DNA from: Allobosea caraganae
Lineage (GTDB): Bacteria; Pseudomonadota; Alphaproteobacteria; Rhizobiales; Beijerinckiaceae
DNA: 64,000 bases
Reading direction: 5' to 3'
NCBI RefSeq assembly: GCF_003351345.1
Contig: NZ_QQTO01000001.1
Coordinates: forward strand, 310,001 to 374,000
Below are positions 37,690 through 58,403 of the stretch, piece after piece. Each line of letters starts with the position of its first letter. Position 1 is the first letter of the stretch. Below the pieces are notes generated by a model, which had not been told where the DNA came from, did no database searches, and saw only the letters and a list, made by a program, of their open reading frames with translations. The translations under genes were made by a program, and so were the position numbers.

Positions 37690-37825
37690 GCTGGCGAAGT
37701 CCCGTGAATCTCTGCCTGTTACCATGCGCATCGCGCCTGGAGAAATGCGCGCCATGGCGATCGTTGTCGAAGCGGGGCCAACGCCCAGTTGACGCCCGCC
37801 GCAATTCCGCCCTACTTCTGAACGC

Positions 37826-37997
37826 GACGGTTCCCTCACGGGATCAAAAGGGAACGCAGTGAAAGGTGATCGCTCACCCCATGCTGCGGCTGCCCCCGCA
37901 ACTGTAAGCGGCGAGCCTTTCGCCATACGCCACTGGGACCTCGGCCCTGGGAAGGCGGCGTGAAGGCAGCGACCCGCGAGCCAGGAGACCTGCCGTC
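37826..37997 (+). promoter_or_regulatory. Cobalamin riboswitch
   Basis: Contains the conserved B12-aptamer elements in order: a P1 arm GACGG (37826-37830), GGGAACGCAGTGAAA (37850-37864), CTGCGGCTGCCCCCGCAACT near 37884-37903 followed by GTAAGCGG, GCCACTGGGACC, then CTGGGAAGGCGGC, and the B12 box AGCCAGGAGACCTGCC (37979-37994) closing with CCGTC that pairs with the first arm. It lies 137 bases before btuB and should repress the uptake genes when adenosylcobalamin is abundant. The following leader to 38133 has no clear terminator, suggesting translational control. Confidence 0.95.
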
Positions 37998-38133
37998 AGC
38001 CGTGGTCACACGCGAGCACATTGGCCGGGGTGCGCTGATGGGTGGTTGAACCAGGCGCGCCCGTTCTTCGGGAGTGGGTGGGGACATCTCGTTCGCGGTG
38101 ACGTGCCACTGACGTTACCGCCGAGGTTCCATT

Positions 38134-43751: not shown

Positions 43752-44768
43752 TCAGATCGCGCCGGGCAGTTCGACCGAGCCGAAATGGTGCTTGGCGTGG
43801 TCGTAGAACACTGCGGGGGCGAAATGCAGGTTGACGCCGGCCCGCACCATCAGGCCGAAGCGGTTGGTCGGCAGGCCCTGGTCCTCCAGCGGCCGGAACA
43901 GCAGCGTCCCACTCTTGATCTCGTTTTGCACGCCGATCGGCGTCATCACCGAGGCGTAGCCGCCTATCAGCGCGAGCTCGACCAGCAGGCGGATCGAGTC
44001 GACTTCGACCAGAGGCGGCAGGATCAGCGCCGATTGCTGCAGGAAGGGCTCGATCACCTCGCGGATCGAGATCTCCGGCTTCGCCACCGCCATCGGATGG
44101 GCGATGCAGGCCGCGAGCGTCAGGTGCGGCACCGCGGCGAGTGGGTGGTCGGGCCGCATCACCACGCCGATGCGGACGTCGCGGCGCACCGCGACCTCGA
44201 CCAGCGATGACGGCTTGGCGACGAAGCCGAAGCCGACATCGGCGCGCTCGTCGGCCAGCCGGGCGATCACGTCGGAGGAGGCGACGACGGAAACGTCGAG
44301 ATGCAGGCGCGGATAGCGCCGGCCGAAATCGGCGATGAGCTGCGGCAGGACGGAGAGCCCGACGCTCTCGACCGTGGCGATGCGCACCGAACCGGTCTTC
44401 AGCCCGCGCAGCATGTCGAGCTCGGAGACCGCCGCCTCCAGCGGCAGGGTCAGGCGGCGGGCATGGCGATAGAGGATCTCGCCGGCCGGCGCGAGCGTGA
44501 GCCGCCGCCCGTCGCGCTGGAACAGCGCCATGCCGAGGGCGTCCTCGAGCTGGGCGATCTGCCGCGTCACCGCCGAGGAGGCGATGTTGAGCCGCCGCCC
44601 CGCTTCGCGGACGGAGAGGCACTCGGCGACCGCGTTGAAATAGATCAGCGACGGCTGATGGAAGACACGTGCCAGCAACGCTGGTGAAAGGGCGTGGTCG
44701 CGCGGACGAATTTGAGTATTCGGCTTGTTCGTTGACGTAACGTCATCGTCGGAATGGGTCTTTGCCAT
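43752..44768 (-). CDS. LysR-family regulator, probable regulator of purine catabolism
   Basis: A 338-aa LTTR. The HTH lies at about residues 40-95 (LIYFNAVAECLSVREAGRRL, NIASSAVTRQIAQLEDALGM) after a 35-residue polar N-terminal extension. ATG 44768 begins MAKTHSDDDVTSTNK; a longer start at 44837 would run into the candidate operator array. The effector domain contains GSVRIATVESVGLSVLPQLI. It is divergent from urate oxidase with 254 bases between, the classical arrangement for an LTTR activating the neighbouring operon. The inducer may be urate, xanthine or an intermediate (inference). Confidence 0.85.
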   Translation of the reverse strand: MAKTHSDDDVTSTNKPNTQIRPRDHALSPALLARVFHQPSLIYFNAVAECLSVREAGRRLNIASSAVTRQIAQLEDALGMALFQRDGRRLTLAPAGEILYRHARRLTLPLEAAVSELDMLRGLKTGSVRIATVESVGLSVLPQLIADFGRRYPRLHLDVSVVASSDVIARLADERADVGFGFVAKPSSLVEVAVRRDVRIGVVMRPDHPLAAVPHLTLAACIAHPMAVAKPEISIREVIEPFLQQSALILPPLVEVDSIRLLVELALIGGYASVMTPIGVQNEIKSGTLLFRPLEDQGLPTNRFGLMVRAGVNLHFAPAVFYDHAKHHFGSVELPGAI

Positions 44769-44784
44769 GAAGCGTCGCCCGGCC

Positions 44785-44826
44785 GGCAGTCGTGCTGCCG
44801 AATTGGCAGCGTAGCGCTCTGCAATT
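44785..44826. promoter_or_regulatory. Candidate operator array in the LysR-uricase intergenic region
   Basis: GGCAG (44785-44789), CTGCC (44795-44799), GGCAG (44805-44809) and CTGCA (44819-44823) alternate in direction; the first three are spaced exactly 10 bp, one helical turn. AATTGG...CTGCAATT at 44801-44826 forms an imperfect dyad of the LTTR T-N11-A kind. This fits binding of the LysR protein encoded 17 bases away. Confidence 0.5.
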
Positions 44827-45022
44827 GGAAATATCAAGAACTGAAACCATCCCTACAATCAGCTTAGCCGTCACGAGATCAAATCCCGGCTTCAGACCGG
44901 AACGGGGCGGTGTCCAAGGATCAGGCACGGGTTTCAAGGCTTCGCCGGCACGTCCGGCGATGGTGGCGAAGCTGTGCCTGCTCGAAGCCAAAGCCGGCCG
45001 AACTGCTGAAAAGGGGTCATCC

Positions 45023-45862
45023 ATGCCGCTCATCCGCAACAGCTATGGCAAGGGCCGGGTGCGCATCATGCGCGTCAAGCGCGAGACCGACCGGCACGAG
45101 GTGCGCGAGCTGACCGTCAAGGCGCTGCTCACAGGCGATTTCGCGGCGAACTACACCTCCGACGACAATTCGACGGCGATCGCGACCGACACGGTCAAGA
45201 ACATCGTCAACATCGTCGCCCGCGACAATGTCGGCGCCGAGAACGAGCCCTACGCCGCGGCTTTGGCCAAGTATTTCCTCGATCACTATCTGCAGGTCAG
45301 CCAGGTCGACGTCACCGCGAGCGAGACCAAGTGGGCGCGCCTCCTCGTCGACGGCGCGCCGCACCAGCACAGCTTCCTGCTCGACAGCAACGGCAAGCCT
45401 TTCGTCAAGCTCAGCGCCACGCGCGCGGGTTCGACTGTGACCTCGGGCATCGAGAACTTCACGTTCATGAAGACCACGGAATCCGGCTGGGTCGGCTATG
45501 TCATGGACGAGGTCACCACGATCAAGGAGACCGCCGACCGGATGTGCGCCACCGCGATGGACGCCTCCTGGCGCTGGTCCAAGGCTCCGTCCTCCTATCC
45601 CGAAGCGAATGCGAAGGTGCTGGCGACGGCGCTCAAGGTCTTCGCCACGACCTACAGCCCGAGCGTGCAGAACACGATGTACCTGATGGGCGAGGCCGTG
45701 CTCGCCGCCGTGCCGGAGATCGCCGAGATCTCGATGGCCTGCCCCAACAAGCACTACCTGCCGATCGACCTCAGCCTCTTCGGCCGCAACGGCGACAAGC
45801 AGGTCTTCACCCCGACGGACGAGCCGCACGGGCAGATCGAATGCACGGTCGGGCGGGCCTGA
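45023..45862 (+). CDS. Factor-independent urate hydroxylase (uricase)
   Basis: Oxidises urate to 5-hydroxyisourate with O2, without cofactor; 279 aa in one chain with two T-fold domains. The N-terminus has SYGKGRVRIMRVKRE with the catalytic Lys, TAIATDTVKNIVNIVARD with the catalytic Thr-Asp pair, and the second-domain motifs ENFTFMKTTESGWVGYVMDE and ACPNKHYLPIDLSLFG. The start at 45023 follows AAAAGGGGTC; longer in-frame versions run through the control region. No obvious C-terminal peroxisome-type signal (none expected). It opens the purine operon. Confidence 0.95.
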   Translation: MPLIRNSYGKGRVRIMRVKRETDRHEVRELTVKALLTGDFAANYTSDDNSTAIATDTVKNIVNIVARDNVGAENEPYAAALAKYFLDHYLQVSQVDVTASETKWARLLVDGAPHQHSFLLDSNGKPFVKLSATRAGSTVTSGIENFTFMKTTESGWVGYVMDEVTTIKETADRMCATAMDASWRWSKAPSSYPEANAKVLATALKVFATTYSPSVQNTMYLMGEAVLAAVPEIAEISMACPNKHYLPIDLSLFGRNGDKQVFTPTDEPHGQIECTVGRA

Positions 45863-45888: not shown

Positions 45889-46713
45889 ATGGATCTCAAC
45901 ACGATCAACGCCATCGCCCGCCCCCGGAGCCGCGGCGAGCTGGCGGATTTCGGCAGGGGCGATGCCTGGCTCGCCGGCGGCACCTGGCTGTTCTCCGAGC
46001 CGCAGCCGCACCTGACGCGGCTGATCGACCTGTCGCAGGCCGGCTGGGCGCCTCTGCTGGTCAGCGAAGCCGGGCTCTCGATCGCCGCGACCTGCACCGT
46101 CGCGACGCTCGACGCCCTCAAAGCGCCGGCGGACTGGATCGCGGCGCCGCTGATCGGCCTGTGCTGCCGCTCCTTCCTCGCCTCCTTCAAGATCTGGAAC
46201 ATGGCGACGGTCGGCGGCAATCTTTGCATGGCGCTGCCGGCCGGGCCGATGATCTCGCTCTGCGCGGCGCTGGACGGTGTCTGCACCATCTGGATGCCGG
46301 AAGGTGGCGAGCGCCGCGTCCCGGTCGCCGATTTCGTCGAGGGCCCGCTGCAGCCGGCGCTTCGCCCGGGCGAGGTGCTGAGGAGCATCGCGCTGCCGCG
46401 CGAGGCTCTCTCTCGCCGTTTCGCCTTCCGGCGCGCCTCGCTCTCGCAGCTCGGTCGCTCCGGCGTGCTCCTGATTGGAACTTTGCCGGCTACGGGAGAC
46501 TTCGTCCTGACCGTGACGGCCTCCACCCGCCGGCCCGTCCAGCTCGCCTTCGCCGATATGCCAGGCCCCAACGAGCTGGCGGCGCGGCTTGCCGAGGCGA
46601 TTCCCGACGCACTCTATTATGACGACGTCCATGGCCGGCCGGACTGGCGCCGGCACATGACCTTCGAATTCGCCGAGGAGATCAGGCGCGAGCTGGCGGA
46701 GCCGCGTCGATGA
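45889..46713 (+). CDS. Xanthine dehydrogenase FAD-binding subunit
   Basis: A 274-aa FAD subunit of the molybdenum hydroxylase. The FAD_binding_5 motif is AGGTWLFSEPQPHLTRLIDL (about residues 27-46), with KIWNMATVGGNLCMALPAGP as the second flavin-contacting block and a CO_deh_flav_C-type C-terminus. It passes electrons from the FeS clusters encoded by the next gene to NAD+ or another acceptor. It overlaps the next gene by 4 bases (ATGA at 46710). Confidence 0.9.
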   Translation: MDLNTINAIARPRSRGELADFGRGDAWLAGGTWLFSEPQPHLTRLIDLSQAGWAPLLVSEAGLSIAATCTVATLDALKAPADWIAAPLIGLCCRSFLASFKIWNMATVGGNLCMALPAGPMISLCAALDGVCTIWMPEGGERRVPVADFVEGPLQPALRPGEVLRSIALPREALSRRFAFRRASLSQLGRSGVLLIGTLPATGDFVLTVTASTRRPVQLAFADMPGPNELAARLAEAIPDALYYDDVHGRPDWRRHMTFEFAEEIRRELAEPRR

Positions 46714-49511
46714 GCTTCGTCGTCAACGGCATGCAGCACGATGCGACGCCGCAACCCGGCCAGTGCCTGCGCACCTTCCTGCGCGAGCTCGGCTGGTTCG
46801 GCGTCAAGAAGGGCTGCGACGCCGGCGATTGCGGCGCCTGCACCGTCCATCTCGACGGCAAGCCGGTGCATAGCTGCCTCGTCCCCGCCTTCCGGGCCGA
46901 GGGCCTGGAGGTGACGACGATCGAGGGGCTCGGCGTCGACGGGCTGCATCCGATGCAGCAGGCCTTCCTCGACGCGCAGGGCTTCCAATGCGGCTTCTGC
47001 ACCGCCGGCATGGTGATGACCGCAGCCTGCCTCGATCAGGCGCAGCGCCAGGACCTGCCAGCCGCGCTCAAGGGCAATCTCTGCCGCTGCACCGGCTACC
47101 GCGCCATCGCCGACGCCATTGCAGGCCACAAGCACGCGGACGGCGCCGGCTCCTCCGGCGGCCGCAACGTGCCGGCGCCAGCCGGGCCGGCCGTAGTCTC
47201 CGGCAAGGCGCGCTACACCATGGACGTCGCGCCGGACGGCCCGCTTCAGGGCCTGCTCCACATGAAGATCCTGCGCTCGCCGCACGCCTCGGCCCGCATC
47301 GTCGCGATCGACGCCAGCGCCGCGCTGGCGCTGCCCGGCGTGATCGCGGTGCTCACCCACGAGGACGCGCCGCAGAAGCATTTCTCCACCGCACGGCACG
47401 AGCACGTCACCGACGATGTCGACGACACGCTGGTGCTCGATCCGATCATCCGCTTCGCCGGCCAGCGCGTCGCCGCCATCGTCGCGGTCAGCGAGGCCGT
47501 GGCCGAGGCGGCGCGCGATCTCGTCGAGGTCAGCTACGAGCTGCTGCCGGCGGTGTTCGACCCGGAAGAGGCGATGCGGCCGGGCGCGCCCGTCATCCAT
47601 GACAAGCCGGTCTCCTCGCGCATCGCCAACGCCTCGCGCAACATCGTCGCCGAGCTGCATGGCGAGACCGGCGATGTCGAGGCCGGCTTTGCCGAGGCCG
47701 ACCTCGTCCATGAGGCCACCTACCAGTCGCAGCGCGTCCAGCACGCGCATCTGGAGACGCATGGCGCCATCGGCTGGCTCGGCGGCGATGGCCGGCTGCA
47801 TGTCCGCACCAGCTCGCAGACGCCGTTCCTGACGCGCGACGCGCTCTGCACCCTGTTCAACATGCCCAAGGACAAGGTGCGGGTGTTCAGCGAGCGCGTC
47901 GGCGGCGGCTTCGGCGGCAAGCAGGAGATGATCACCGAGGACATCGTCGCGCTCGCGGTGCTCACGACCGGCCGGCCGGTGAAGCTCGAATTCACCCGCA
48001 GCGAGCAGTTCTCCGCCTCGACCAGCCGCCACCCGATGCGCGTGACGGTGAAGCTCGGCGTGCGCCGCGACGGCACGCTGACCGCGCTCTCCATGCGCAT
48101 GGTCTCGAATACCGGCGCCTACGGCAATCACGGGCCGGGCGTGCTGTTCCATGCCGCGGGCGAGGCGATCGCGCTCTATCGCTGCGCGAACAAGAAGGTC
48201 GATGGCTACGCCGTCTACACCAACACGCTGCCGAGCGGCGCCTTCCGCGGCTACGGCCTGAGCCAGACGATCTTCGCGGTCGAATCCGCCATGGACGAGG
48301 CCGCGCACAAGCTCGGCATCGACCCCTTCGCCTTCCGCCGCCTCAATGTCGTCAGGGCCGAGGACCCGATCGTCGCCGCCGACCATGTGGCGCATGACCT
48401 TTCCTTCGGCAGCTACGGGCTTGACCAGTGCCTCGACCTGGTCGAGCGCGACCTCAACGGCGCGCCGAAGCCGAAACTTTCCGGCGACTGGCTGACTGGC
48501 CGCGGCATGGCCGTCGCCATGATCGCGACGATCCCGCCGCGCGGGCACCGCGCCGAGAGCCGGATACGGCTGACGACCGAGGGCACCTACGAACTGGCCG
48601 TCGGCACGGCCGAATTCGGCAACGGCACGACGACGGTGCATGCCCAGATCGCGGCGACCATGCTTGGCGCAACGCCAGCGCAGATCCGCATCCGCCAGTC
48701 CGATACCGACCATATCGCGCATGACACCGGCGCCTATGGCAGCACCGGCACGGTCGTCGCGGGAGCGGCGACTGGCCGGGCAGCCGAGGCGCTGGCCGAA
48801 GCGATCTGTACCTTCGCCGCCGCCCATTCGGGCGTGGATCGCGCGACTTGCCGGCTCGTGGACGGCGACGTCATGGCCGGCGAGCGCCGGATCAGCCTTG
48901 TCGAACTCGCGGAAGCCGCCATGGCAAAGGGCGTCGCGCTGTCTGGCATCGGCCATTCCGACGGCTCGTCGCGCTCGATCGCCTTCAACGTCCAGGGCTT
49001 CGAGGTCGCCGTGCACCGCCGCCAGGGCGAGATCCGCATCCTCCGCAGCATCCACGCCGCCGATGCCGGCTTCGTCATCAACCCGATGCAGTGCCGCGGG
49101 CAGGTCGAGGGCGGCGTCGCCCAGGCGCTGGGCGCGGCGCTCTACGAGCAGATGCTGATCGATGCCGAAGGCAAGGTCGCGAACCCGACCTTCCGCGGCT
49201 ACCACATCCCGAGCTTCGCCGACACGCCGGTGACCACCGTCCATTTCGCCGCGACCTCCGACAGCATCGGCCCTCTCGGCGCCAAGTCGATGAGCGAGAG
49301 CCCCTACAACCCCGTCGCCGCGGCGCTGGCCAACGCGATCTGCGCTGCGACCGGCGTGCGCCTACGCGAGACGCCTTTCACCGCCGACCGGCTCTACCGG
49401 CTGGTGCTCGACGAGGACGGCCGCAACGCCCTCCGGCGCAGCGAAGCCCGCGACGCGGTCGAGCCGCCCTTCCAAGCGCAGGAGCATGCCGTCGCCGTCC
49501 CGGGCGAGTAG
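46710..49511 (+). CDS. Xanthine dehydrogenase, fused [2Fe-2S] and molybdopterin subunits
   Basis: A 933-aa fusion. Residues 1-140 form the two [2Fe-2S] domains with Cys36, 41, 44 and 56 (CDAGDCGAC...C) and Cys94, 97, 125 and 127 (CGFC...CRC). The Moco domain follows from about 150, with VSGKARYTMDVAPDG, the GGGFGGKQEM pterin-contacting loop, SGAFRGYGLSQTIFAVESAM, and at the C-terminus GPLGAKSMSESPYNPVAAAL with the catalytic-position Glu. The cofactor-insertion chaperone XdhC was not seen nearby. Converts hypoxanthine/xanthine to urate. Domain order FeS-Moco with a separate FAD protein differs from the common three-gene or XdhA(FeS+FAD)/XdhB layouts. Confidence 0.93.
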   Translation: MSFVVNGMQHDATPQPGQCLRTFLRELGWFGVKKGCDAGDCGACTVHLDGKPVHSCLVPAFRAEGLEVTTIEGLGVDGLHPMQQAFLDAQGFQCGFCTAGMVMTAACLDQAQRQDLPAALKGNLCRCTGYRAIADAIAGHKHADGAGSSGGRNVPAPAGPAVVSGKARYTMDVAPDGPLQGLLHMKILRSPHASARIVAIDASAALALPGVIAVLTHEDAPQKHFSTARHEHVTDDVDDTLVLDPIIRFAGQRVAAIVAVSEAVAEAARDLVEVSYELLPAVFDPEEAMRPGAPVIHDKPVSSRIANASRNIVAELHGETGDVEAGFAEADLVHEATYQSQRVQHAHLETHGAIGWLGGDGRLHVRTSSQTPFLTRDALCTLFNMPKDKVRVFSERVGGGFGGKQEMITEDIVALAVLTTGRPVKLEFTRSEQFSASTSRHPMRVTVKLGVRRDGTLTALSMRMVSNTGAYGNHGPGVLFHAAGEAIALYRCANKKVDGYAVYTNTLPSGAFRGYGLSQTIFAVESAMDEAAHKLGIDPFAFRRLNVVRAEDPIVAADHVAHDLSFGSYGLDQCLDLVERDLNGAPKPKLSGDWLTGRGMAVAMIATIPPRGHRAESRIRLTTEGTYELAVGTAEFGNGTTTVHAQIAATMLGATPAQIRIRQSDTDHIAHDTGAYGSTGTVVAGAATGRAAEALAEAICTFAAAHSGVDRATCRLVDGDVMAGERRISLVELAEAAMAKGVALSGIGHSDGSSRSIAFNVQGFEVAVHRRQGEIRILRSIHAADAGFVINPMQCRGQVEGGVAQALGAALYEQMLIDAEGKVANPTFRGYHIPSFADTPVTTVHFAATSDSIGPLGAKSMSESPYNPVAAALANAICAATGVRLRETPFTADRLYRLVLDEDGRNALRRSEARDAVEPPFQAQEHAVAVPGE

Positions 49512-49597: not shown

Positions 49598-51559
49598 ATG
49601 TCGATGACGATCTTGGCAGATGCGAACCCGGCACTCGGCTACGTGCCGCCGGCCCGGGCCGGGAAGGTCCACCCGGTGGACGAGGTGCTGCCGATCGGGC
49701 AGCTCGCCGCCTACGGCTTCCAGCACGTCCTGGCCTTCTACGCCGGCGCCGTGCTCGTGCCGATCATCATCGCCGGTGCCTTGAACCTCGATCAGCAGCA
49801 GCTGATCCACCTGATCAACGCCGATCTCTTCACTTGCGGCATCGCCTCGCTGCTTCAGGCCGTCGGCGTCTGGAAGATCGGCGTCAGGCTGCCGCTCCTG
49901 CAGGGCGTGACCTTCACGGCGGTCAGCCCGATGATCGCGATCGGCCTCACCGCGGGCGGCGGCACGCCCGGCCTTCTCGCCATCTACGGCTCGGTCCTCG
50001 TCGCCGGCGTCTTCACGTTCCTGGTCGCCGGCCATTTCGCCAAGCTGGTGCGCTTCTTCCCGCCGGTCGTCACCGGTTCGGTCATCCTGATCATCGGCAT
50101 CGCGCTGCTTCCCGTCGCGGCCAATGACATCGTGATGGGCAAGGGCCCGAACGCGATCCAGAACCCGGTCATGCTGAAGAACATCGCCTACGCGCTGGGC
50201 ACCCTGGCCCTGATCGTGGCGATCCAGCGGATCTCGACCGGCTTCATGGCCACAGTGGCGGTGCTCGCCGGCCTCGTCATCGGCACGCTCGTCGCGTGGA
50301 TACTCGGCGACGCCCATTTCGGCGAGGTCGCGAAGGCCGATTGGGTCGGCTACACCATGCCGTTCTATTTCGGCATGCCGACCTTCAGCATCACCGCCAT
50401 CCTGTCGATGATCATCGTCATGATCATCACGATGGTCGAGACGACCGGCGACGTCTACGCCACCGGCGAGATCGTCAAGAAGCGCATCCGCCAGGACGAT
50501 ATCGGCCGCGCCATCCGCGCCGACGGCCTGGCCACCTTCATCGGCGGCGTGTTCAACTCGTTTCCCTATACCTGCTTCGCCGAGAATGTCGGCCTCGTCC
50601 GCCTGACCCAGATCAAGAGCCGCTGGGTCGTCGCCGCCGCCGCCGTCATCATGATCATCCTCGGCTCGCTGCCGAAGGCGGCGGCGATCGTCGCCGGCAT
50701 TCCGCACCCGGTGCTGGGCGGCGCGGCGCTTGCCATGTTCGCCGCCGTGGCGGTCGTCGGCATCCAGACGCTGAGCAAGGTCGACTTCAACAACCACGCC
50801 AACATCGTCATCGTCAGCACCAGCGTCGGCCTGGGCATGCTGGTCACGGCGCAGCCCTTCGTCGCCGACGCCTTCCCGCCCTGGGCGCAGATCATGTTCG
50901 GCAGCGGCATCACGCTCGGCGCCGTGGCGGCGATAGGGCTCAACATCGTCTTCAACCATCTCGGCGCCGGTCACGCGACGGTCGTCGCCGGTAGGCCCGG
51001 CGATCACGCGGTCACGCTGGCCGACGTCAACGCCATGAGCAGCGCCGCGTTCAGCAAGACCTTCGGCGGGCTCGTCGAGAACACGCCCTGGGTCCTGGAG
51101 CGCGCCTACGCGATGAAGCCCTTCGCCGACACGATCGCGCTGCGGACGGCGTTCCACGACGCGCTGCTGACCGGCTCGGCCGAGGAGCAGCTGCAGCTGA
51201 TGAACTCCTTTGCCGATCTCGGCAGCGAGGGCGACGCCGACAACGCCTACAGGCTCGACCACGTCAACGCCGGCATCGACGGGCTCGATGCGGAAGATCA
51301 GGGCCATGTGCTGGAGCTCGCCCGCGCCTATCGCAAGCACTTCGCCTTCCCGCTGATCGTCTGCGCCCGCGAAGTCGAGCGCTATGAGCGGGTGCTGGCC
51401 AATGGCTGGTCGCGCATGGCCAATTCGCCGGGCGTGGAGCGGGCGGCCGGGCTGATCGAGATCGCCAAGATCGCCAACTACCGGTTCGACGACCTGGTGG
51501 CGAACGCGAACCCGATCGCGGCAGCCCATATCGAGCGCTTCGTCCAGCACCCTGCGTGA
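49598..51559 (+). CDS. NCS2 purine permease fused to a degenerate OHCU-decarboxylase-like domain
   Basis: A 653-aa two-part protein. Residues 1-465 are a nucleobase:cation symporter-2 of the UraA/PbuX type: YGFQHVLAFYAGAVLVPIII (QH motif), VETTGDVYATGEI and FNSFPYTCFAENVGLVRLT are NCS2 hallmarks, with about 12-14 TM helices. Residues 472-650 resemble OHCU decarboxylase (UraD): LADVNAMSSAAFSKTFGGLV, ENTPWVLERAY, ARAYRKHFAFPLIVCARE. The decarboxylase HPDL catalytic His motif is replaced by FADL (538-541), and the following SEQ block is missing. Start ATG 49598 after AAGGAG. The permease likely imports xanthine or urate; the tail may be a sensor or docking domain. Confidence 0.88.
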   Translation: MSMTILADANPALGYVPPARAGKVHPVDEVLPIGQLAAYGFQHVLAFYAGAVLVPIIIAGALNLDQQQLIHLINADLFTCGIASLLQAVGVWKIGVRLPLLQGVTFTAVSPMIAIGLTAGGGTPGLLAIYGSVLVAGVFTFLVAGHFAKLVRFFPPVVTGSVILIIGIALLPVAANDIVMGKGPNAIQNPVMLKNIAYALGTLALIVAIQRISTGFMATVAVLAGLVIGTLVAWILGDAHFGEVAKADWVGYTMPFYFGMPTFSITAILSMIIVMIITMVETTGDVYATGEIVKKRIRQDDIGRAIRADGLATFIGGVFNSFPYTCFAENVGLVRLTQIKSRWVVAAAAVIMIILGSLPKAAAIVAGIPHPVLGGAALAMFAAVAVVGIQTLSKVDFNNHANIVIVSTSVGLGMLVTAQPFVADAFPPWAQIMFGSGITLGAVAAIGLNIVFNHLGAGHATVVAGRPGDHAVTLADVNAMSSAAFSKTFGGLVENTPWVLERAYAMKPFADTIALRTAFHDALLTGSAEEQLQLMNSFADLGSEGDADNAYRLDHVNAGIDGLDAEDQGHVLELARAYRKHFAFPLIVCAREVERYERVLANGWSRMANSPGVERAAGLIEIAKIANYRFDDLVANANPIAAAHIERFVQHPA

Positions 51560-51631
51560 GCACAGGGCGACGGCGAGCCCCGATGCTCGCCGTCGCCCGA
51601 CCACTTGAACCTGACCGGAGGAGATGGAGCG

Positions 51632-53014
51632 GTGACGACGACCAAGGCGCTGCGTGGCCGCGCCATCTCCTTCCGCGGCAATCCGTTCGAGCAGCCGGCC
51701 GAGACCTGCCTCGTCCACCACGACGATGCACTCGTGATCATCGAGGGCGGCGTCATCGAGGCCTGCGGCCCCTATGCCGAGCTGCGCCACACGCTGCCGG
51801 ACGGCGTCGTCCCCATCGAATATCCCGACGCGATCATCTGCGCGGGCTTCATCGACGCCCATGTGCACTACCCGCAGCTCCAGATGATCGGCGCCTATGG
51901 CTCGCAGCTGCTGGAATGGCTGGAGACCTACACCTTCGTCGCCGAGCAGCAATTCGCCGATGCCGCCCATGCCGGGCGGGTCGCGGGGCTGTTCATGCGC
52001 GAGCTGCTGCGCGCCGGCACGACCACGGCGATGGTCTACTGCACCGTGCATCCGCAATCGGTCGATGCCTTCTTTGCCGAGGCCGAGCGCTTCAATGCAA
52101 GGATGATCGCCGGCAAGGTCCTGATGGACCGCAATGCGCCCGATGCCCTGCTCGACAGCGCCCAGCGCGGCTATGACGAGAGCAAGGCGCTGATCGCGCG
52201 CTGGCACGGCAGGGGCCGCCAGCATTATTGCGTCACCCCGCGCTTCGCCCCGACCAGCACGGAAGCCCAGCTCGATGCCGCCGGCGCGCTGCTCAAGGAG
52301 CATGACGGGCTCTTCCTGCAGACGCATCTCTGCGAGAATCCGAGCGAGATCGCATGGGTGCGCGAGCTCTTTCCGGCGCGCGCGAGCTATCTCGACGTCT
52401 ACGCCCATGCCGGGCTCGTCGGGCGGCGCTCGATGTTCGGCCATGCCGTGCACATGCACGAGCAGGATTTCTGCACCTGCCACCAGGCCGGCGCGGCCTT
52501 GGCGCATTGCCCGACCTCGAACCTCTTCCTCGGCAGCGGCCTCTTCCGCCTGTTCGACGCGGTCGATCCGAAGCGGCCGGTCAAGGTCGCTCTCGGCACC
52601 GATGTCGGCGCCGGCACCAGCCTGTCGCAATTGCAGAGCCTGAACGAGGCCTACAAGGTCGCGGCGCTGACGGACCGGAAGCTCAACGCCACGCAAGCCT
52701 TCTACCTCGCCACGCTCGGCGGCGCCGAGGCACTCTACCTGGACGACAGGCTCGGCAAGCTCGAGCCCGGCTACGATGCCGATCTCTGCATCCTCGACAC
52801 CCGCGCGACGCCGCTGCTCGGCTTCCGCAGCGCTTATTGTGACAGCATCGAGGACCTCCTCTTCGTGCTGATGACGCTCGGCGACGACCGCGCGGTGCGC
52901 GCGACCTATGTCGCCGGCGAGTGCGTCTACGACCGCGACCGGGCCGGCGAGGCCTTCCGCTATCCGGCCGCGACATCCCCCCATCGAGAGGACCTGCCGT
53001 GCCCGATCGCCTGA
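51632..53014 (+). CDS. guaD: Guanine deaminase
   Basis: Zinc amidohydrolase converting guanine to xanthine, 460 aa. The metal-binding motifs are FIDAHVHYPQLQMIGAYGSQ, QTHLCENPSEI, SMFGHAVHM and GTDVGAGTSLSQLQSLNEAY, all characteristic of GuaD. It starts at a GTG (51632) with GGAG 9 bases upstream; a TTG at 51605 is less likely. The stop lies inside the next gene (16-base overlap), indicating coupling. It feeds the xanthine dehydrogenase encoded upstream. Confidence 0.95.
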   Translation: MTTTKALRGRAISFRGNPFEQPAETCLVHHDDALVIIEGGVIEACGPYAELRHTLPDGVVPIEYPDAIICAGFIDAHVHYPQLQMIGAYGSQLLEWLETYTFVAEQQFADAAHAGRVAGLFMRELLRAGTTTAMVYCTVHPQSVDAFFAEAERFNARMIAGKVLMDRNAPDALLDSAQRGYDESKALIARWHGRGRQHYCVTPRFAPTSTEAQLDAAGALLKEHDGLFLQTHLCENPSEIAWVRELFPARASYLDVYAHAGLVGRRSMFGHAVHMHEQDFCTCHQAGAALAHCPTSNLFLGSGLFRLFDAVDPKRPVKVALGTDVGAGTSLSQLQSLNEAYKVAALTDRKLNATQAFYLATLGGAEALYLDDRLGKLEPGYDADLCILDTRATPLLGFRSAYCDSIEDLLFVLMTLGDDRAVRATYVAGECVYDRDRAGEAFRYPAATSPHREDLPCPIA

Positions 53015-53886
53015 CCCTCGCCGCCCTGAACGACGCCGACCGCACGAGCTTCGTCGCGGCGCTGGACGGCATCTTCGAGCACGCCCCCTGGGTCGCCGAG
53101 GCCAGCTTCGCGGCGCGCCCCTTCGCGACGGTGGCGGCGCTGCACGAAGCGATGATGCAGGCGGTGCTGAGCCGGCCGATCGAGGAGCGGCTCGCCTTCG
53201 TGCGGCTCCACCCCGACCTCGCCGGCAAGGCGGCGCGGGCCGGCGAGATGGCCGCGGAATCGGTCAGCGAGCAGGCCGGGCTCGGGCTCGACCGGCTCTC
53301 CGACGCCGAATACGCCCGCTTCGAGCGGCTCAACGCCGAGTATGACGGGCGCTTCGGCATTCCTTTCGTGATCTGCGTGCGCCGGCAGACGCGCGATGCC
53401 GTGCTCGCCGCCTTCGAGAGGAGGTTGGGCCATGCCCCCGGTGCGGAGCTCGCCGCGGCGCTGGCCGAGATCGGCCATATCACCCGGCTCAGGCTGGTCG
53501 AGCGCGTCGACGGGCCCGGCGCGCCAGCGGTCGCCGGGCGCCTCACGACGCATGTGCTCGATACCCAGAGCGGCTGCCCGGCCGAGGGCGTCCGCGTCCA
53601 GCTCTACGAGATCGGGCACTCCGCCCGGGCGCTGCTGCTGGAAACCCGTACCAACGCCGACGGCCGCACCGACCAGCCCTTGCTCGGGGGCGGCCCGCTG
53701 CGCATCGGCACCTACGAGCTGGTCTTCCATGTCGGCCCCTATTTCGCGGCGAAGAGCCCTGCGCTGCCGGAGCGGCCCTTCCTCGACGAGGTGCCGCTGC
53801 GCTTCGGCATCGCCGAGCCGGAGGGCCATTATCACGTGCCGCTGATCGCGACGCCGTGGAGCTATGCAACCTACCGTGGCAGCTGA
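52999..53886 (+). CDS. Bifunctional OHCU decarboxylase / hydroxyisourate hydrolase (UraD-UraH)
   Basis: A 295-aa fusion completing urate to S-allantoin. UraD domain, residues 1-170: IFEHAPWVAEASFAARPF, catalytic RLHPDLAGKAAR (His71), SVSEQAGLGLDRLSDAEY, GRFGIPFVICVRRQT. UraH (transthyretin-like) domain, residues 180-295: RLTTHVLDTQSGCPAEGVRV, VGPYFAAK, FGIAEPEGHYHVPLI and the C-terminal YRGS tetrapeptide that defines HIU hydrolases. GTG 52999 is the start, within the guaD 3' end. Unlike the permease-fused paralogue, this UraD keeps its HPDL and SEQ motifs and is expected to be active. Confidence 0.94.
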   Translation: MPDRLTLAALNDADRTSFVAALDGIFEHAPWVAEASFAARPFATVAALHEAMMQAVLSRPIEERLAFVRLHPDLAGKAARAGEMAAESVSEQAGLGLDRLSDAEYARFERLNAEYDGRFGIPFVICVRRQTRDAVLAAFERRLGHAPGAELAAALAEIGHITRLRLVERVDGPGAPAVAGRLTTHVLDTQSGCPAEGVRVQLYEIGHSARALLLETRTNADGRTDQPLLGGGPLRIGTYELVFHVGPYFAAKSPALPERPFLDEVPLRFGIAEPEGHYHVPLIATPWSYATYRGS

Positions 53887-54050
53887 GCGCCCGGACGTGT
53901 CGACATCTCCAGTCAAACTGCAATTTTATTGTGCAATCGCCTCAGCAGGCGCCAATTCCTCGCCAAATCGGCCCGATGGCTCGCAGCGCAAGCCCCGCCA
54001 TCGCTTTGGCATGGCGCTTGTAAGGCATCCGCCTCAACCAGGAGGTGGGC

Positions 54051-55040
54051 GTGCGCGGTTCTGATCTCGAGCTCGTTCAGGTCACCAAGCGCTACGGCGT
54101 GACGGTCGCCGTCAACGCGATCAACCTGCGCGTCAAGGCGGGCACCTATTGCTGCCTGCTTGGACCTTCCGGCTGCGGCAAATCCTCGACGCTGCGGATG
54201 ATCGCCGGCCATGAGGCGGTCAGCGAAGGCGACATCATCCTGGGGCCGAGCAATGTGACCGACCTCGCCCCGGCTCAGCGCGGCACCGCCATGATGTTCC
54301 AGAGCTACGCGCTGTTCCCGCATCTCTCCTGCGTCGACAACGTCGCCTTCTCCCTGAAGATGCGCGGCGTCGCCAAGGCCGAGCGGCGCAAGGAGGCGAT
54401 GCGCCTGCTCGAACTCGTCGCCATGAGCAGCTACGCCGAGCGCCTGCCGGCGCAGCTCTCGGGCGGGCAGCAGCAGCGCGTCGCATTGGCCCGCGCGCTG
54501 ATCACCAAGCCGCAGATCCTGCTGCTCGACGAGCCGCTCTCGGCGCTCGACCCGTTCCTGCGCATCAAGATGCGCGCCGAGTTGAAAAAGCTGCAGAAGG
54601 AGCTCGGCATCACCTTCATCCACGTTACCCATGGCGAGGACGAGGCGATGGCGCTGGCCGACCTGATGGTGGTGATGAACCAGGGCCTGATCGAGCAGGC
54701 CGGCACGCCGCGCGAGATCTTCAACGCACCGGCGACCGCCTTCATCGCCCGCTTCATCGGCGGCCACAACATCGTCTCGGATGCCGCGGGCGCAATCGCG
54801 GTGCGCACCGACAAGCTGCGCCTGACCAAGGCCGTCAACGGCGCCGCCCGCACCGCGGTGGTCAGCGATGTCGAATACCAGGGCAGCTACGTCCAGGTCG
54901 GGCTCGCCGCGGATTTCGCCCCCGAACTCACCGCCAACCTGAGCGAGGCCGTCTTCGACGCCGAGCCCTTCAACCCCGGCGACACCGTCGCCGTGAGCTG
55001 GAACGAGGCCGACATCCACCGGCTGGGAACTGCCGCCTGA
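54051..55040 (+). CDS. ABC transporter ATPase, polyamine/spermidine (PotA) type
   Basis: A 329-aa ATPase: Walker A CLLGPSGCGKSSTLRMI (about 35-51), Q-loop MMFQSYALFPHLS, signature LPAQLSGGQQQRVALARALI, Walker B ILLLDEPLSALDP, H-loop HVTHGEDEA, and a C-terminal TOBE domain. GTG 54051 follows AGGAGG at 54040-54045; the GTG at 54045 lies inside that site. It is the first gene of a PotABCD-like set after the purine genes. In this position the transporter may move allantoin, ureides or a purine precursor rather than polyamines; sequence alone cannot decide. Confidence 0.9.
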   Translation: MRGSDLELVQVTKRYGVTVAVNAINLRVKAGTYCCLLGPSGCGKSSTLRMIAGHEAVSEGDIILGPSNVTDLAPAQRGTAMMFQSYALFPHLSCVDNVAFSLKMRGVAKAERRKEAMRLLELVAMSSYAERLPAQLSGGQQQRVALARALITKPQILLLDEPLSALDPFLRIKMRAELKKLQKELGITFIHVTHGEDEAMALADLMVVMNQGLIEQAGTPREIFNAPATAFIARFIGGHNIVSDAAGAIAVRTDKLRLTKAVNGAARTAVVSDVEYQGSYVQVGLAADFAPELTANLSEAVFDAEPFNPGDTVAVSWNEADIHRLGTAA

Positions 55041-55086
55041 CGACGAGCAAGATCAACGAGCGAGATCAATGAGGAGGGATCGAACG

Positions 55087-56379
55087 ATGACCAAAAGGAC
55101 GAAGGACACGACAGGCCTCTCGCGCCGCGCGGTGCTGAAGGGCGCCGGCGCCGCAGCCGGCCTCGCCGCGGGCTCGGGCGCGATCACCGGCTTTCCCGCG
55201 GTCTGGTCGCAGGAGCCGAAGGTGCTGCGCTATCTCGGCACGGCGGTGAACCAGTCCGACGACATCACCAAGAAGGTCAAGGCCGATACCGGCATCACCA
55301 TCGAGTACATCTCGGCCACGACCGACGACGTGACCAAGCGCGTCATCACCCAGCCGAACTCCTTCGACGTGCTCGACACCGAGTATTTCAGCCTGAAGAA
55401 GCTGGTGCCATCGGGCAACATCCTCGCCATGGACGCCACCAAGATCAAGCAGTTCGACAACATCACGCCGGTCTTCACCAAGGGCCAGCTGCCCAACGGC
55501 AAGGTCATTGGCGACCAGGGCACCGCGCCCAAGAAGGTGATGTTCGTCGAGGGCGCGAACTCGACCAAGTTCGCTTCGGGCGTGACGCAATGGGTGACGC
55601 TGATCCCGACCGTCTACAACGCCGACACGCTCGGCATCCGCCCCGACCTGATCAAGCGCCCGATCGAGAGTTGGAAGGAGCTGCTCAACCCCGAGTTCAA
55701 GGGCAAGGCCTCGATCCTCAACATCCCCTCGATCGGCATCATGGACGCCGCCATGGTGGTCGAGGCCTCCGGCCTCTACAAATATCCCGACAAGGGCAAC
55801 ATGACCCGCGCCGAGATCGACATGACCATGAAGGTCCTGACCGAGGCGAAGAAGAGCGGCCAGTTCCGCGCCTTCTGGAAGGACTTCAACGAGAGCGTCA
55901 ACCTGATGTCCTCGGGCGAGACGGTGATCCAGTCGATGTGGTCGCCGGCCGTCACCGCCGTGCGCACCAAGGGCATCGCCTGCACCTTCCAGCCGCTGAA
56001 GGAGGGCTACCGCTCCTGGGCCTCGGGATTCTGCCTGTCCAAGTCCGTCACCGGCCGCAAGGCCGAGCTCGCCTACGAGTTCGTCAACTGGTTCCTCTCC
56101 GGCTGGGCCGGCGCCTATCTCAACCGCCAGGGCTACTACTCGGCGGTGCTCCCCACCGCCAAGGCCAACATGGAGCCCTATGAATGGGCCTACTGGATGG
56201 AGGGCAAGCCGGCCGAGAAGGACATCAAGGCGCCCGATGGTTCCCTGCTGGAGAAGGCCGGCGCCAGCCGCGACGGCGGCTCCTACGACGACCGCATGGG
56301 CAACGTCGCCTGCTGGAACGCGGTGATGGACGAGAACGACTACATGGTCCGCAAGTGGAACGAGTTCATCGCGGCGTGA
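55087..56379 (+). CDS. ABC transporter substrate-binding protein (PotD-like, Tat-exported)
   Basis: A 430-aa periplasmic binding protein. The N-terminus MTKRTKDTTGLSRRAVLKGA carries a twin-arginine motif (SRRAVLK) and a hydrophobic segment ending GFPAVWSQ, so it is probably exported folded via Tat. The mature part is the extracellular solute-binding family 1/PotD fold (DVLDTEYFSLKKLVPSG, IESWKELLNPEFKGKASILN). ATG 55087 follows GAGGAGGG; an in-frame start at 55069 is less likely. It is separated from the permease genes by a 106-base nested palindrome. Confidence 0.9.
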   Translation: MTKRTKDTTGLSRRAVLKGAGAAAGLAAGSGAITGFPAVWSQEPKVLRYLGTAVNQSDDITKKVKADTGITIEYISATTDDVTKRVITQPNSFDVLDTEYFSLKKLVPSGNILAMDATKIKQFDNITPVFTKGQLPNGKVIGDQGTAPKKVMFVEGANSTKFASGVTQWVTLIPTVYNADTLGIRPDLIKRPIESWKELLNPEFKGKASILNIPSIGIMDAAMVVEASGLYKYPDKGNMTRAEIDMTMKVLTEAKKSGQFRAFWKDFNESVNLMSSGETVIQSMWSPAVTAVRTKGIACTFQPLKEGYRSWASGFCLSKSVTGRKAELAYEFVNWFLSGWAGAYLNRQGYYSAVLPTAKANMEPYEWAYWMEGKPAEKDIKAPDGSLLEKAGASRDGGSYDDRMGNVACWNAVMDENDYMVRKWNEFIAA

Positions 56380-56400
56380 ACCGCGTTTGACAGAACTCGA

Positions 56401-56506
56401 CGTCATCCCGGCCGCAGCGCAGCGGAGCGCCGGGATCCATCGTAAGGCTCAGAACTCTACGATGGATCCCGGGACTGCGCGGCTTCGCCGCTTGCCCGGG
56501 ATGACG
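56401..56506. repeat. Nested palindromic element inside the ABC operon
   Basis: Outer arms CGTCATCCCGG (56401-56411) and CCGGGATGACG (56496-56506) and inner arms GGGATCCATCGTA (56432-56444) and TACGATGGATCCC (56458-56470) form one long imperfect hairpin. It lies between the binding-protein stop and the permease start. Such intergenic elements can stabilise the upstream mRNA and lower expression of downstream membrane proteins. Confidence 0.8.
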
Positions 56507-56560
56507 ATGCGGGTGTGACGAAGCGATCCGCTTTCCGACCGAGACGAGAACCAAACCGAG

Positions 56561-57448
56561 ATGCCCGCGACGAAAACCGCCTACGCGCCGCCGGCCTGGC
56601 TGCAGGCCTTGCCCTTCGCCGGGGTCTTCGCGCTGTTCTTCGTCGTGCCGCTGCTCTTCGTCGTGATGGTCTCGTTCTGGGACTATAACGACTATTCGAT
56701 CATCCCCAGCTTCACGACGCGCAGCTACGTCGAGACTTTCGAGGGCTGCTACGACCAGCTGCCCGAGCTCTGCACCATCCTGAGGACCTATCTCTCGACG
56801 GTGAAGTTCTGCCTGATCGTCTGGGCGCTGACGCTCGTGATCGGCTTCACCATCGCCTATTTCCTGGCCTTCCACGTCCGCACCGTCACCATGCAGATGA
56901 CGCTGGCGCTGGTCTGCACCATCCCGTTCTGGACCTCGAACGTCATCCGGATGATCTCCTGGGTGCCGCTGCTCGGCCGCAACGGCCTCGTCAACAGCGC
57001 ACTCATCAATGTCGGCCTGATCAACGAGCCGATCGAATGGCTGCTCTTCTCGCAATTCTCGGTGGTGCTCGCCTTCGTGCACCTGTTCACCTTCTTCATG
57101 GTGATCCCGATCTTCAATTCGATGGCGCGCATCGACAAGCGCCTGCTCGAGGCGGCCTATGACGCTGGCGCCAGCGGCTGGCAGACCCTCTGGAACGTCG
57201 TCATCCCGCTGGCCAAGCCCGGCATCGTCATCGGCTCGATCTTCGTCGTCACCATCGTGATGGGCGATTTCATCACGGTCGGGGTCATGGGCGGCCAGCA
57301 GATCGCCTCGGCCGGCAAGATCATCGAAACCCGGCTGAACGCGCTGCAATTCCCGCCGGCCGCGGCCAATGCGGTGATCCTGCTGGCGATCACGCTGCTG
57401 ATCATCACGGCGCTCAACCGTTTCGTCGATATTCGGAAGGAGCTTTGA
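56561..57448 (+). CDS. ABC transporter permease, PotB type
   Basis: A 295-aa inner-membrane permease with about six TM helices. The BPD_transp_1 coupling (EAA) loop is LLEAAYDAGASGWQTLWNVV with IPLAKPGIVIGS downstream (about residues 195-230). The N-terminus is MPATKTAYAPPAWLQALPFA before the first TM helix. A dispersed repeat begins right at its stop codon and separates it by 64 bases from the second permease. Confidence 0.9.
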   Translation: MPATKTAYAPPAWLQALPFAGVFALFFVVPLLFVVMVSFWDYNDYSIIPSFTTRSYVETFEGCYDQLPELCTILRTYLSTVKFCLIVWALTLVIGFTIAYFLAFHVRTVTMQMTLALVCTIPFWTSNVIRMISWVPLLGRNGLVNSALINVGLINEPIEWLLFSQFSVVLAFVHLFTFFMVIPIFNSMARIDKRLLEAAYDAGASGWQTLWNVVIPLAKPGIVIGSIFVVTIVMGDFITVGVMGGQQIASAGKIIETRLNALQFPPAAANAVILLAITLLIITALNRFVDIRKEL

Positions 57449-57495
57449 GCATGATGCCCAAAAGTGGGAGCCGGTTTTCGGACGACATCATGCTC
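57447..57495. repeat. Dispersed palindromic repeat, copy 4
   Basis: Perfect 10-bp ends GAGCATGATG (57447-57456) and CATCATGCTC (57486-57495) around AAAAGTGGGAGCCGGTTTTCG. The left end overlaps the permease TGA stop. Same core as copies 1-3. Confidence 0.8.
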
Positions 57496-57512
57496 CAGAG
57501 GGGGCCTTAGCC

Positions 57513-58403
57513 ATGCGCGAGGGCCGTCCCGCCTCGTTCTACTGGCTCGCCGCCTTCTTCTGCCTGTTCCTGCTCTTCCTGTACGGGCCGATGATCGCGA
57601 TCTTCGCGCTCTCCTTCCAGGGGCCGACCGGCGGCATGACCTTCCCGATGAACGGGATTTCCTTGCACTGGTTCGGCCGGCTCTGGAGCGGCGGCGGCAT
57701 CGTCGACATCAAGTCGGCCTTCTGGCGCTCGCTCCAACTCGGCCTCACCGTGATGGTCATCACCATGGTCTTCTCGGTGCTGGCCGGCCTCGCCTTCCGC
57801 AAGCGCTTCATCGGCCAGAACCTGCTGTTCTATGTGACCATCGCCAGCCTGATCGTGCCCTCGATCGTGACCTCGCTCGGCATCGCCCTGCAGTTCCGGC
57901 TCTTCGACGAGGTGGTGAAGGCCTATGCGCCGGGCTTCATCGCCGACACCTACTCGACCGCGATGGGCATCTTCACCTCGGGCCTGGGCGCGCACCTGAC
58001 CTGGGCGCTGCCCTTCGGCCTGCTGATCATGTTCGCGATCTTCAACCGCTTCGACGGCAGGCTGGAGGAAGCCGCGCGCGACCAGGGCGCCACGCCCTGG
58101 CAGACCTTCTTCCACGTCATCCTGCCGGTGATCCTGCCCTCGCTGATCGGCGTCGGGCTCTTCGGCTTCACCCTGTCCTGGGACGAGATCGCCCGCTCCT
58201 CGCAAGCGATCGGCGAGAAGAACACGCTGCCGCTCGAATTGCAGGCCCTGACCTCGACCGTGACGACGCCAGAAATCTACGCGCTCGGCACCGTGACGAC
58301 CGGCGTCTCGTTCCTGGTGATCGGCCTGGCGCTGGCGGGGATCCTGTTCCTGCGCGCCCGGCAGGCGCGCCATGGCTCCGATGCCGGCAAGGGGCTGAGT
58401 TAG
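57513..58403 (+). CDS. ABC transporter permease, PotC type
   Basis: A 296-aa inner-membrane permease with about six TM helices. The EAA coupling loop is LEEAARDQGATPWQTFFHVI followed by LPVILPSLIGVG (about residues 180-215). The first TM segment is WLAAFFCLFLLFLYGPMIAI. Together with the ATPase, binding protein and PotB-type permease it completes an importer. The start ATG at 57513 follows AGGGGGCC. Confidence 0.9.
   Translation: MREGRPASFYWLAAFFCLFLLFLYGPMIAIFALSFQGPTGGMTFPMNGISLHWFGRLWSGGGIVDIKSAFWRSLQLGLTVMVITMVFSVLAGLAFRKRFIGQNLLFYVTIASLIVPSIVTSLGIALQFRLFDEVVKAYAPGFIADTYSTAMGIFTSGLGAHLTWALPFGLLIMFAIFNRFDGRLEEAARDQGATPWQTFFHVILPVILPSLIGVGLFGFTLSWDEIARSSQAIGEKNTLPLELQALTSTVTTPEIYALGTVTTGVSFLVIGLALAGILFLRARQARHGSDAGKGLS

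Follow-up and report, generated by a model that had tools for sequence, protein, structure and literature searches.

Why should a purine permease carry, as its C-terminal domain, a relative of the urate-pathway enzyme UraD in which the catalytic histidine has been replaced? This question is raised by a 653-residue protein encoded in a 64,000-nucleotide stretch of the Allobosea caraganae genome (contig NZ_QQTO01000001.1, positions 310,001 to 374,000), called the window below. A sequence-only reading of the window had proposed a fusion of an NCS2 purine permease with a UraD-like domain, and this was borne out by translation as one open reading frame (ORF) and by matches to both Pfam domains. An AAGGAG motif is located just upstream of the ATG of the gene, whose parts lie, in window coordinates, as follows.

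49598..51559, + strand: NCS2 purine permease fused to a UraD-like pseudoenzyme domain, 653 aa (single ORF by translation; Pfam, NCBIfam)
49598..50992, + strand: permease part, residues 1-465, PbuX subfamily
51026..51499, + strand: UraD-like domain, residues 477-634
51209..51211, + strand: Phe538 at the position of the UraD catalytic His (zebrafish His67; alignment)
51257..51262, + strand: Asp554-His555 at the UraD Glu87-Gln88 position (alignment)
51482..51484, + strand: Arg629, retained, at the UraD Arg161 position (alignment)
51500..51556, + strand: C-terminal tail, with the A-N-P motif at residues 637-639

Pfam assigned residues 35-420 to Xan_ur_permease (E 3.3e-102) and residues 478-630 to OHCU_decarbox (E 5.8e-30), the latter with a score of 105.3 against a cut-off of 24. 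In its score with TIGR03173 (xanthine permease PbuX; 506.6 bits, over the curated cut-off of 414.15) and in the superposition of its predicted model on UapA and UraA, which gives it the NAT membrane fold, the permease part is like the PbuX members of the NCS2/NAT family. With the UHCUDC model, the fused UraD-like domain obtained 84.3 bits, under the curated cut-off of 96.25, and the UraD part of a UraD-UraH enzyme encoded downstream 186.2 bits. The C-terminal domain is nevertheless predicted to have the UraD fold.

Two protein searches gave 263 and 588 matches, 120 of each being listed and examined; these sets overlap with each other and with a set of loci in which 80 of 180 relatives were kept. 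Both Pfam domains were found in every listed match of both searches except P0189, which is a piece, and the fusion is present in 59 loci from named public genomes or metagenome-assembled genomes (MAGs). Since the fusion occurs in many genomes, it is not an assembly accident of the A. caraganae genome, and a chance ORF or an assembly artefact was ruled out by the Pfam matches, the protein matches and the loci of relatives. Such proteins number in the hundreds in protein databases, where they go under the names xanthine permease, uric acid transporter, solute carrier family 23 protein or OHCU (2-oxo-4-hydroxy-4-carboxy-5-ureidoimidazoline) decarboxylase. The component families are known, and no description of their combination, an NCS2-UraD fusion, was found among the papers listed in searches of the open-licence literature.

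The catalytic residues of UraD, which we take to be His67, Glu87 and Arg161 (positions counted on the zebrafish chain agree with this naming), correspond to Phe538, Asp554 and Arg629 in the alignment with that chain. The motifs FADL (F538-A539-D540-L541) and VENTPW (V493-W498) given in the sequence-only reading were confirmed by translation. Its statement that the SEQ segment is missing has to be corrected, as this segment aligns to L553-D554-H555 and is thus replaced by LDH, with Asp for Glu and His for Gln. For a wider comparison, 26 of 125 UraD matches were removed as duplicates by their 100-residue core, leaving 99 distinct domains from the loci and the window, 59 of them in permease-bearing ORFs. 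In these 59, the His67 column holds Tyr (48) or Phe (11) and never His, the Glu87 column Asp (58) or Glu (1), and the Arg161 column always Arg. By contrast, the 40 separate domains show His, Glu and Gln in 39 cases each and Arg in 40, the remaining one being a piece without the first three columns. The protein searches gave the same picture: among the 120 listed fusions of the first, the His column is Phe in 108 and Tyr in 12, with Asp at 554 in 118, and among the 120 of the second it is Tyr in 119, plus one row with two UraDs, of which the permease-linked one has Tyr as well, with Asp at 554 in 119. After thinning from 299 to 138 rows, column 538 was divided between Tyr (70) and Phe (68), Asp554 was found in 135, and Arg629 in all 137 readable rows. 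No fused homologue examined retains the full His-Glu-Arg set.

Compared with UraD itself (PF09349; zebrafish 2o70, Klebsiella 3o7h, Agrobacterium 2o8i), the fused domain differs in having Phe or Tyr for His67 and Asp for Glu87, in its score under the UHCUDC cut-off, in its linkage to a permease and in a conserved C-terminal tail, whose A-N-P motif most fused members share and separate UraDs lack. Other fusions of UraD have retained HP..EQ..R, as seen in the UraD-UraH of the window, in a deacetylase-type-UraD protein (L081) and in two longer frames (L087 and L090); allantoin synthase 5z5m, a further UraD fusion, shows AHPDL and EEQ in the alignment.

Two candidates for a histidine-bearing fusion were rejected. 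The HPEL domain of a Rubrobacteraceae locus (L054) lies in a different frame from the preceding permease. In P0189, the permease-linked UraD reads YPDL/RDQ by eye, and HPEL/REQ belongs to a second UraD; this single ORF contains, in tandem, an apparent permease end, a His-less UraD and the start of an intact-looking UraD. Second copies in L012, L031, L038, L111 and L113 lie in long open frames and were not counted as fused, since our counts require a permease match. At L054:9944-14506, a His-less NCS2-UraD fusion comes first, then a second permease gene, and after it an intact UraD gene that stands separately.

As for a pseudo-domain standing alone, the His column of 60 matches examined was Phe in 38, Tyr in 8 and His in 4 (true separate UraDs), and was not reached in 10; many of the 60 sit on short contigs or have an annotated permease part. 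Two Mycobacterium proteins (L131 and L132, from the genomes of loci L009 and L014) are free-standing pseudo-UraDs, with an open frame of 180 aa, Tyr-Pro in place of His-Pro and no EQ segment aligned. Loss of the histidine is thus not confined to fusions.

In a UraD tree built without columns 538, 539, 554 and 555, a single clade with SH-aLRT 99 unites the 59 fused domains (here and below, trees are quick searches with SH-aLRT support only). The domains branching first (Herbihabitans L046, Actinokineospora L047, L056 and L054) have Tyr and Asp, yet they have R-L and are without A-N-P, while the other 55 make up one group (support 99) in which all have R-F and most have A-N-P. Pairwise dN/dS ratios of the domain (NG86), obtained for 16 of 17 pairs, with none for L053/L055 and with dS saturated in the Actinomyces pairs, range from 0.05 to 0.31, far under 1. 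By this measure the clade is under purifying selection and not in decay. With the catalytic residue gone across it, the fused domain is, as far as sequence can tell, a pseudoenzyme, and the decarboxylase activity has probably been lost; the sequence-only reading, which had called it catalytically dead, is well supported on this point.

In the permease tree, three changes between fused and unfused states are seen, which fits one gain of the tail and two losses. Here the window protein groups with those of Labrys, Variovorax and Pseudacidovorax within a mainly actinobacterial set. Within the order to which A. caraganae belongs, the fusion-type domain was found in 4 of 297 sampled genomes including the host (78-100% identity), the other listed matches having at most 36%; it was not found in 11 other listed genomes of the host's own family, 188 genomes without a match being un-named. 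From this scarcity and the actinobacterial grouping we infer that the fusion gene of the window was acquired by horizontal transfer.

Does the fused domain then serve urate breakdown at all? Separate UraDs were searched for in 48 fusion genomes besides the host, out of those of the 59 fused loci (all but L006, L008, L015, L021, L026, L031, L034-L037 and L045); completeness figures were not supplied with these genomes. UraH was searched by family in 47 of the 48 (in L056 by the locus script), uricase in 19 and the molybdenum domain of xanthine dehydrogenase (XDH) in 6. Another UraD was present in 41 of the 48 genomes, each having one with His-Glu-Arg intact, and all 41 have UraH. Six genomes yielded no UraD other than the fusion, nor were UraH, uricase or the XDH molybdenum domain found in them by the family searches: Actinomyces L050, L051 and L059, Trueperella L052, Dermabacteraceae L053 and an Actinomycetaceae MAG, L055. 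The L050 fusion has no purine gene, by eye, among the listed neighbouring ORFs of at least 120 aa. In these six genomes the gene complement, as read by family searches, shows the fusion retained with no urate-pathway gene detected.

These data bear on the possibility that OHCU is still decarboxylated by the domain with the aid of other residues. Its predicted fold, the Arg and an acidic residue are retained, and one MAG (L056) with uricase and UraH in the locus shows only the fused UraD, although this genome may be incomplete. However, no fused protein examined has the histidine, the domain scores under the curated cut-off for this enzyme, 41 of the 42 fusion genomes found to have UraH also carry an intact UraD, and the six genomes keep the fusion with no pathway gene detected. 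We therefore regard continued OHCU decarboxylation as very improbable. L056 apart, the fused domain does not appear to be the enzyme of the pathway or to depend on it.

A changed active site, in which Tyr or Phe, Asp and Arg act on another molecule, would account for a pocket that is altered in an ordered way rather than decayed. In the group of the window protein, His555 next to Asp554 is nearly constant (119 of 121). Nevertheless, among the 138 thinned members this possible substitute for the lost histidine is His in 71 but Gln in 57, and in 68 of them residue 538 is Phe, which is unable to serve as acid or base, so that a new enzymatic activity seems improbable.

Docking was suggested in the sequence-only reading, as an alternative to sensing of a pathway intermediate. 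In this view the domain would bring pathway enzymes to the membrane, for instance by pairing with the UraD-UraH enzyme of the same operon. That apparently active enzyme is indeed encoded two genes downstream, past a guanine deaminase, and retains HPDL, SEQ and Arg. In addition, a separate UraD lies within 12 kb (the script threshold) in 15 of 60 fused ORFs, window included, and an intact UraD somewhere in the genome in the 41 of 48 already mentioned. On the other hand, the six genomes would offer no such partner among the genes searched for, and since the separate UraDs fall into distant groups, of HPDL/HPEL and of HPRIG type, one conserved docking contact is unlikely. There is thus little to recommend docking. 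While the predicted UraD-like fold and the absence of the full His-Glu-Arg set from the fused homologues examined have stood, sensing of an intermediate or docking can hardly be the general role of a fusion kept in six genomes with no pathway detected.

The explanation that we favour, at close to an even chance, is that the His-less domain is a cytosolic ligand-binding module in which a purine or purine-derived ring, held in the old pocket, regulates the domain's own permease. The retention of the acid and the Arg, the constant replacement of His by an aromatic residue and the retention independent of the pathway are best fitted by such a module. The old UraD pocket would still bind a ligand; the most economical choice would be a purine base, which the permease probably carries, rather than OHCU; and binding would alter uptake, the simplest form being feedback at high levels of purine in the cytosol. 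Guanine is bound in UraD crystals, a point given no weight here.

The main rival, which fits almost as well although we consider it rather unlikely, is a structural tail: a UraD fold that dimerises or stabilises the permease or aids its targeting to the membrane, with no ligand. Such a role would also agree with retention in the six genomes, and positions beyond the three catalytic columns (N478, F485, F489, P508, R516, F582, E614, E621 and P639, the last counted among members with the tail present) are conserved like Arg629 and above column 538. A structural tail leaves unexplained, however, why Asp554 and Arg629 are near-invariant and why only Tyr or Phe occurs in the His column. UraD has an all-helical enzyme fold that contains a pocket, and the STAS fold differs from it. 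Transporters of the SLC26/SulP type have a membrane fold related to that of NCS2 and, like the fusion, carry a folded cytosolic C-terminal domain; according to PMC6497670, SLC26 transporters, which share the membrane fold, contain a regulatory STAS domain, a parallel which can be cited for the structural tail. No STAS chain was among the matches listed for the predicted domain, but that search was not aimed at STAS and is uninformative.

Several observations weigh against the ligand-binding module. A strict ligand site would predict higher conservation than that of the lost-His column, which ranks 53rd of 163, and of residue 555, which ranks 72nd. In 13 of 16 pairs the domain evolves more rapidly than the permease, and the full-length model (pTM 0.67) yields no usable interface. 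Permeases of the same subfamily in Streptomyces, Actinomadura and Gluconobacter do without the domain, stopping soon after the last membrane helix where the window protein continues into it. On the tree, the loss of His is a single event, so its weight rests on its retention across Actinobacteria and Proteobacteria; likewise, the six pathway-free genomes form one clade in the permease tree and so amount to a single event; with 33-35% identity to that of the window, their domains belong to the most diverged. In MAG L056, leftover activity is possible. Finally, two intact UraDs, from L054 (Rubrobacteraceae) and L057 (Gluconobacter), are joined to the fused clade with support 95, a placement which unites two long branches and is unsure.

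In L054 the separate UraD gene is directly behind a permease gene, and in L057 the UraD and permease genes are separated by UraH. A table in PMC4016543 lists a pair of separate permease and OHCU decarboxylase genes for Rubrobacter xylanophilus. The fusion may have arisen when a UraD gene near a permease gene was joined to it; His67 would then have been lost and Glu87 shortened to Asp, and the change from R-L to R-F and the A-N-P tail would have come later. The early-branching proteins of Herbihabitans and Actinokineospora, with the His and Glu columns changed and the later features absent, make these steps separately testable.

It is conceivable, at somewhat less than an even chance, that these proteins are a permease family with a built-in metabolite gate, in which a captured urate-pathway enzyme, stripped of its histidine, became a purine-sensing lid and was kept even in a lineage without the pathway. 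If the domain does bind a ligand and gate the transporter, it would be a clean case of fusion making an enzyme into the regulator of a transporter; the transporter family also has members in animals and fungi, which carry purines and vitamin C. We know of no such domain in NCS2/NAT. The name OHCU decarboxylase, given to many fusions among the listed matches, is probably a misannotation across Actinobacteria and in some Proteobacteria, because the sequence argues against that function.

The purine genes around the fusion are likely to form one operon, judging from their order and spacing. Together with a divergent regulator, they are:

43752..44837, - strand: LysR-type regulator, divergent from the purine genes (Pfam)
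45023..45862, + strand: cofactor-free urate oxidase (TIGR03383, 291 bits on 45050-45859; ATG start possible)
45889..46713, + strand: xanthine dehydrogenase-type FAD-binding subunit (Pfam)
46710..49511, + strand: xanthine dehydrogenase-type chain with [2Fe-2S] and molybdenum domains (Pfam; no NCBIfam equivalog cut-off passed)
51605..53014, + strand: guanine deaminase (TIGR02967, 563.5 bits, over the cut-off)
52999..53886, + strand: UraD-UraH enzyme, HPDL, EQ and Arg intact (ORF open from 52921; GTG start at 52999 likely)

The order on the + strand is thus urate oxidase, FAD subunit, iron-sulphur/molybdenum chain, fusion, guanine deaminase and UraD-UraH. In the protein encoded at 46710-49511, the iron-sulphur and molybdenum domains are in one chain, the FAD subunit being encoded separately. 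Of three UraD domains in the host genome (6.17 Mb, 99.86% complete), one is that of the fusion, one that of UraD-UraH, and the third, whose motifs are intact, is linked to a polysaccharide-deacetylase-type domain; the genome also has one NCS2 permease besides the fusion. An Rfam scan of the window at gathering score found no family inside the purine operon, and a cobalamin riboswitch at 37813-38011 (+ strand, 126 bits) as the only family in the window. Directly 3' of the purine genes, at 54045-58403, an ABC ATPase and a solute-binding protein (Pfam) are encoded together with two permease-looking ORFs, and this ABC transporter possibly handles a purine or a purine breakdown product.
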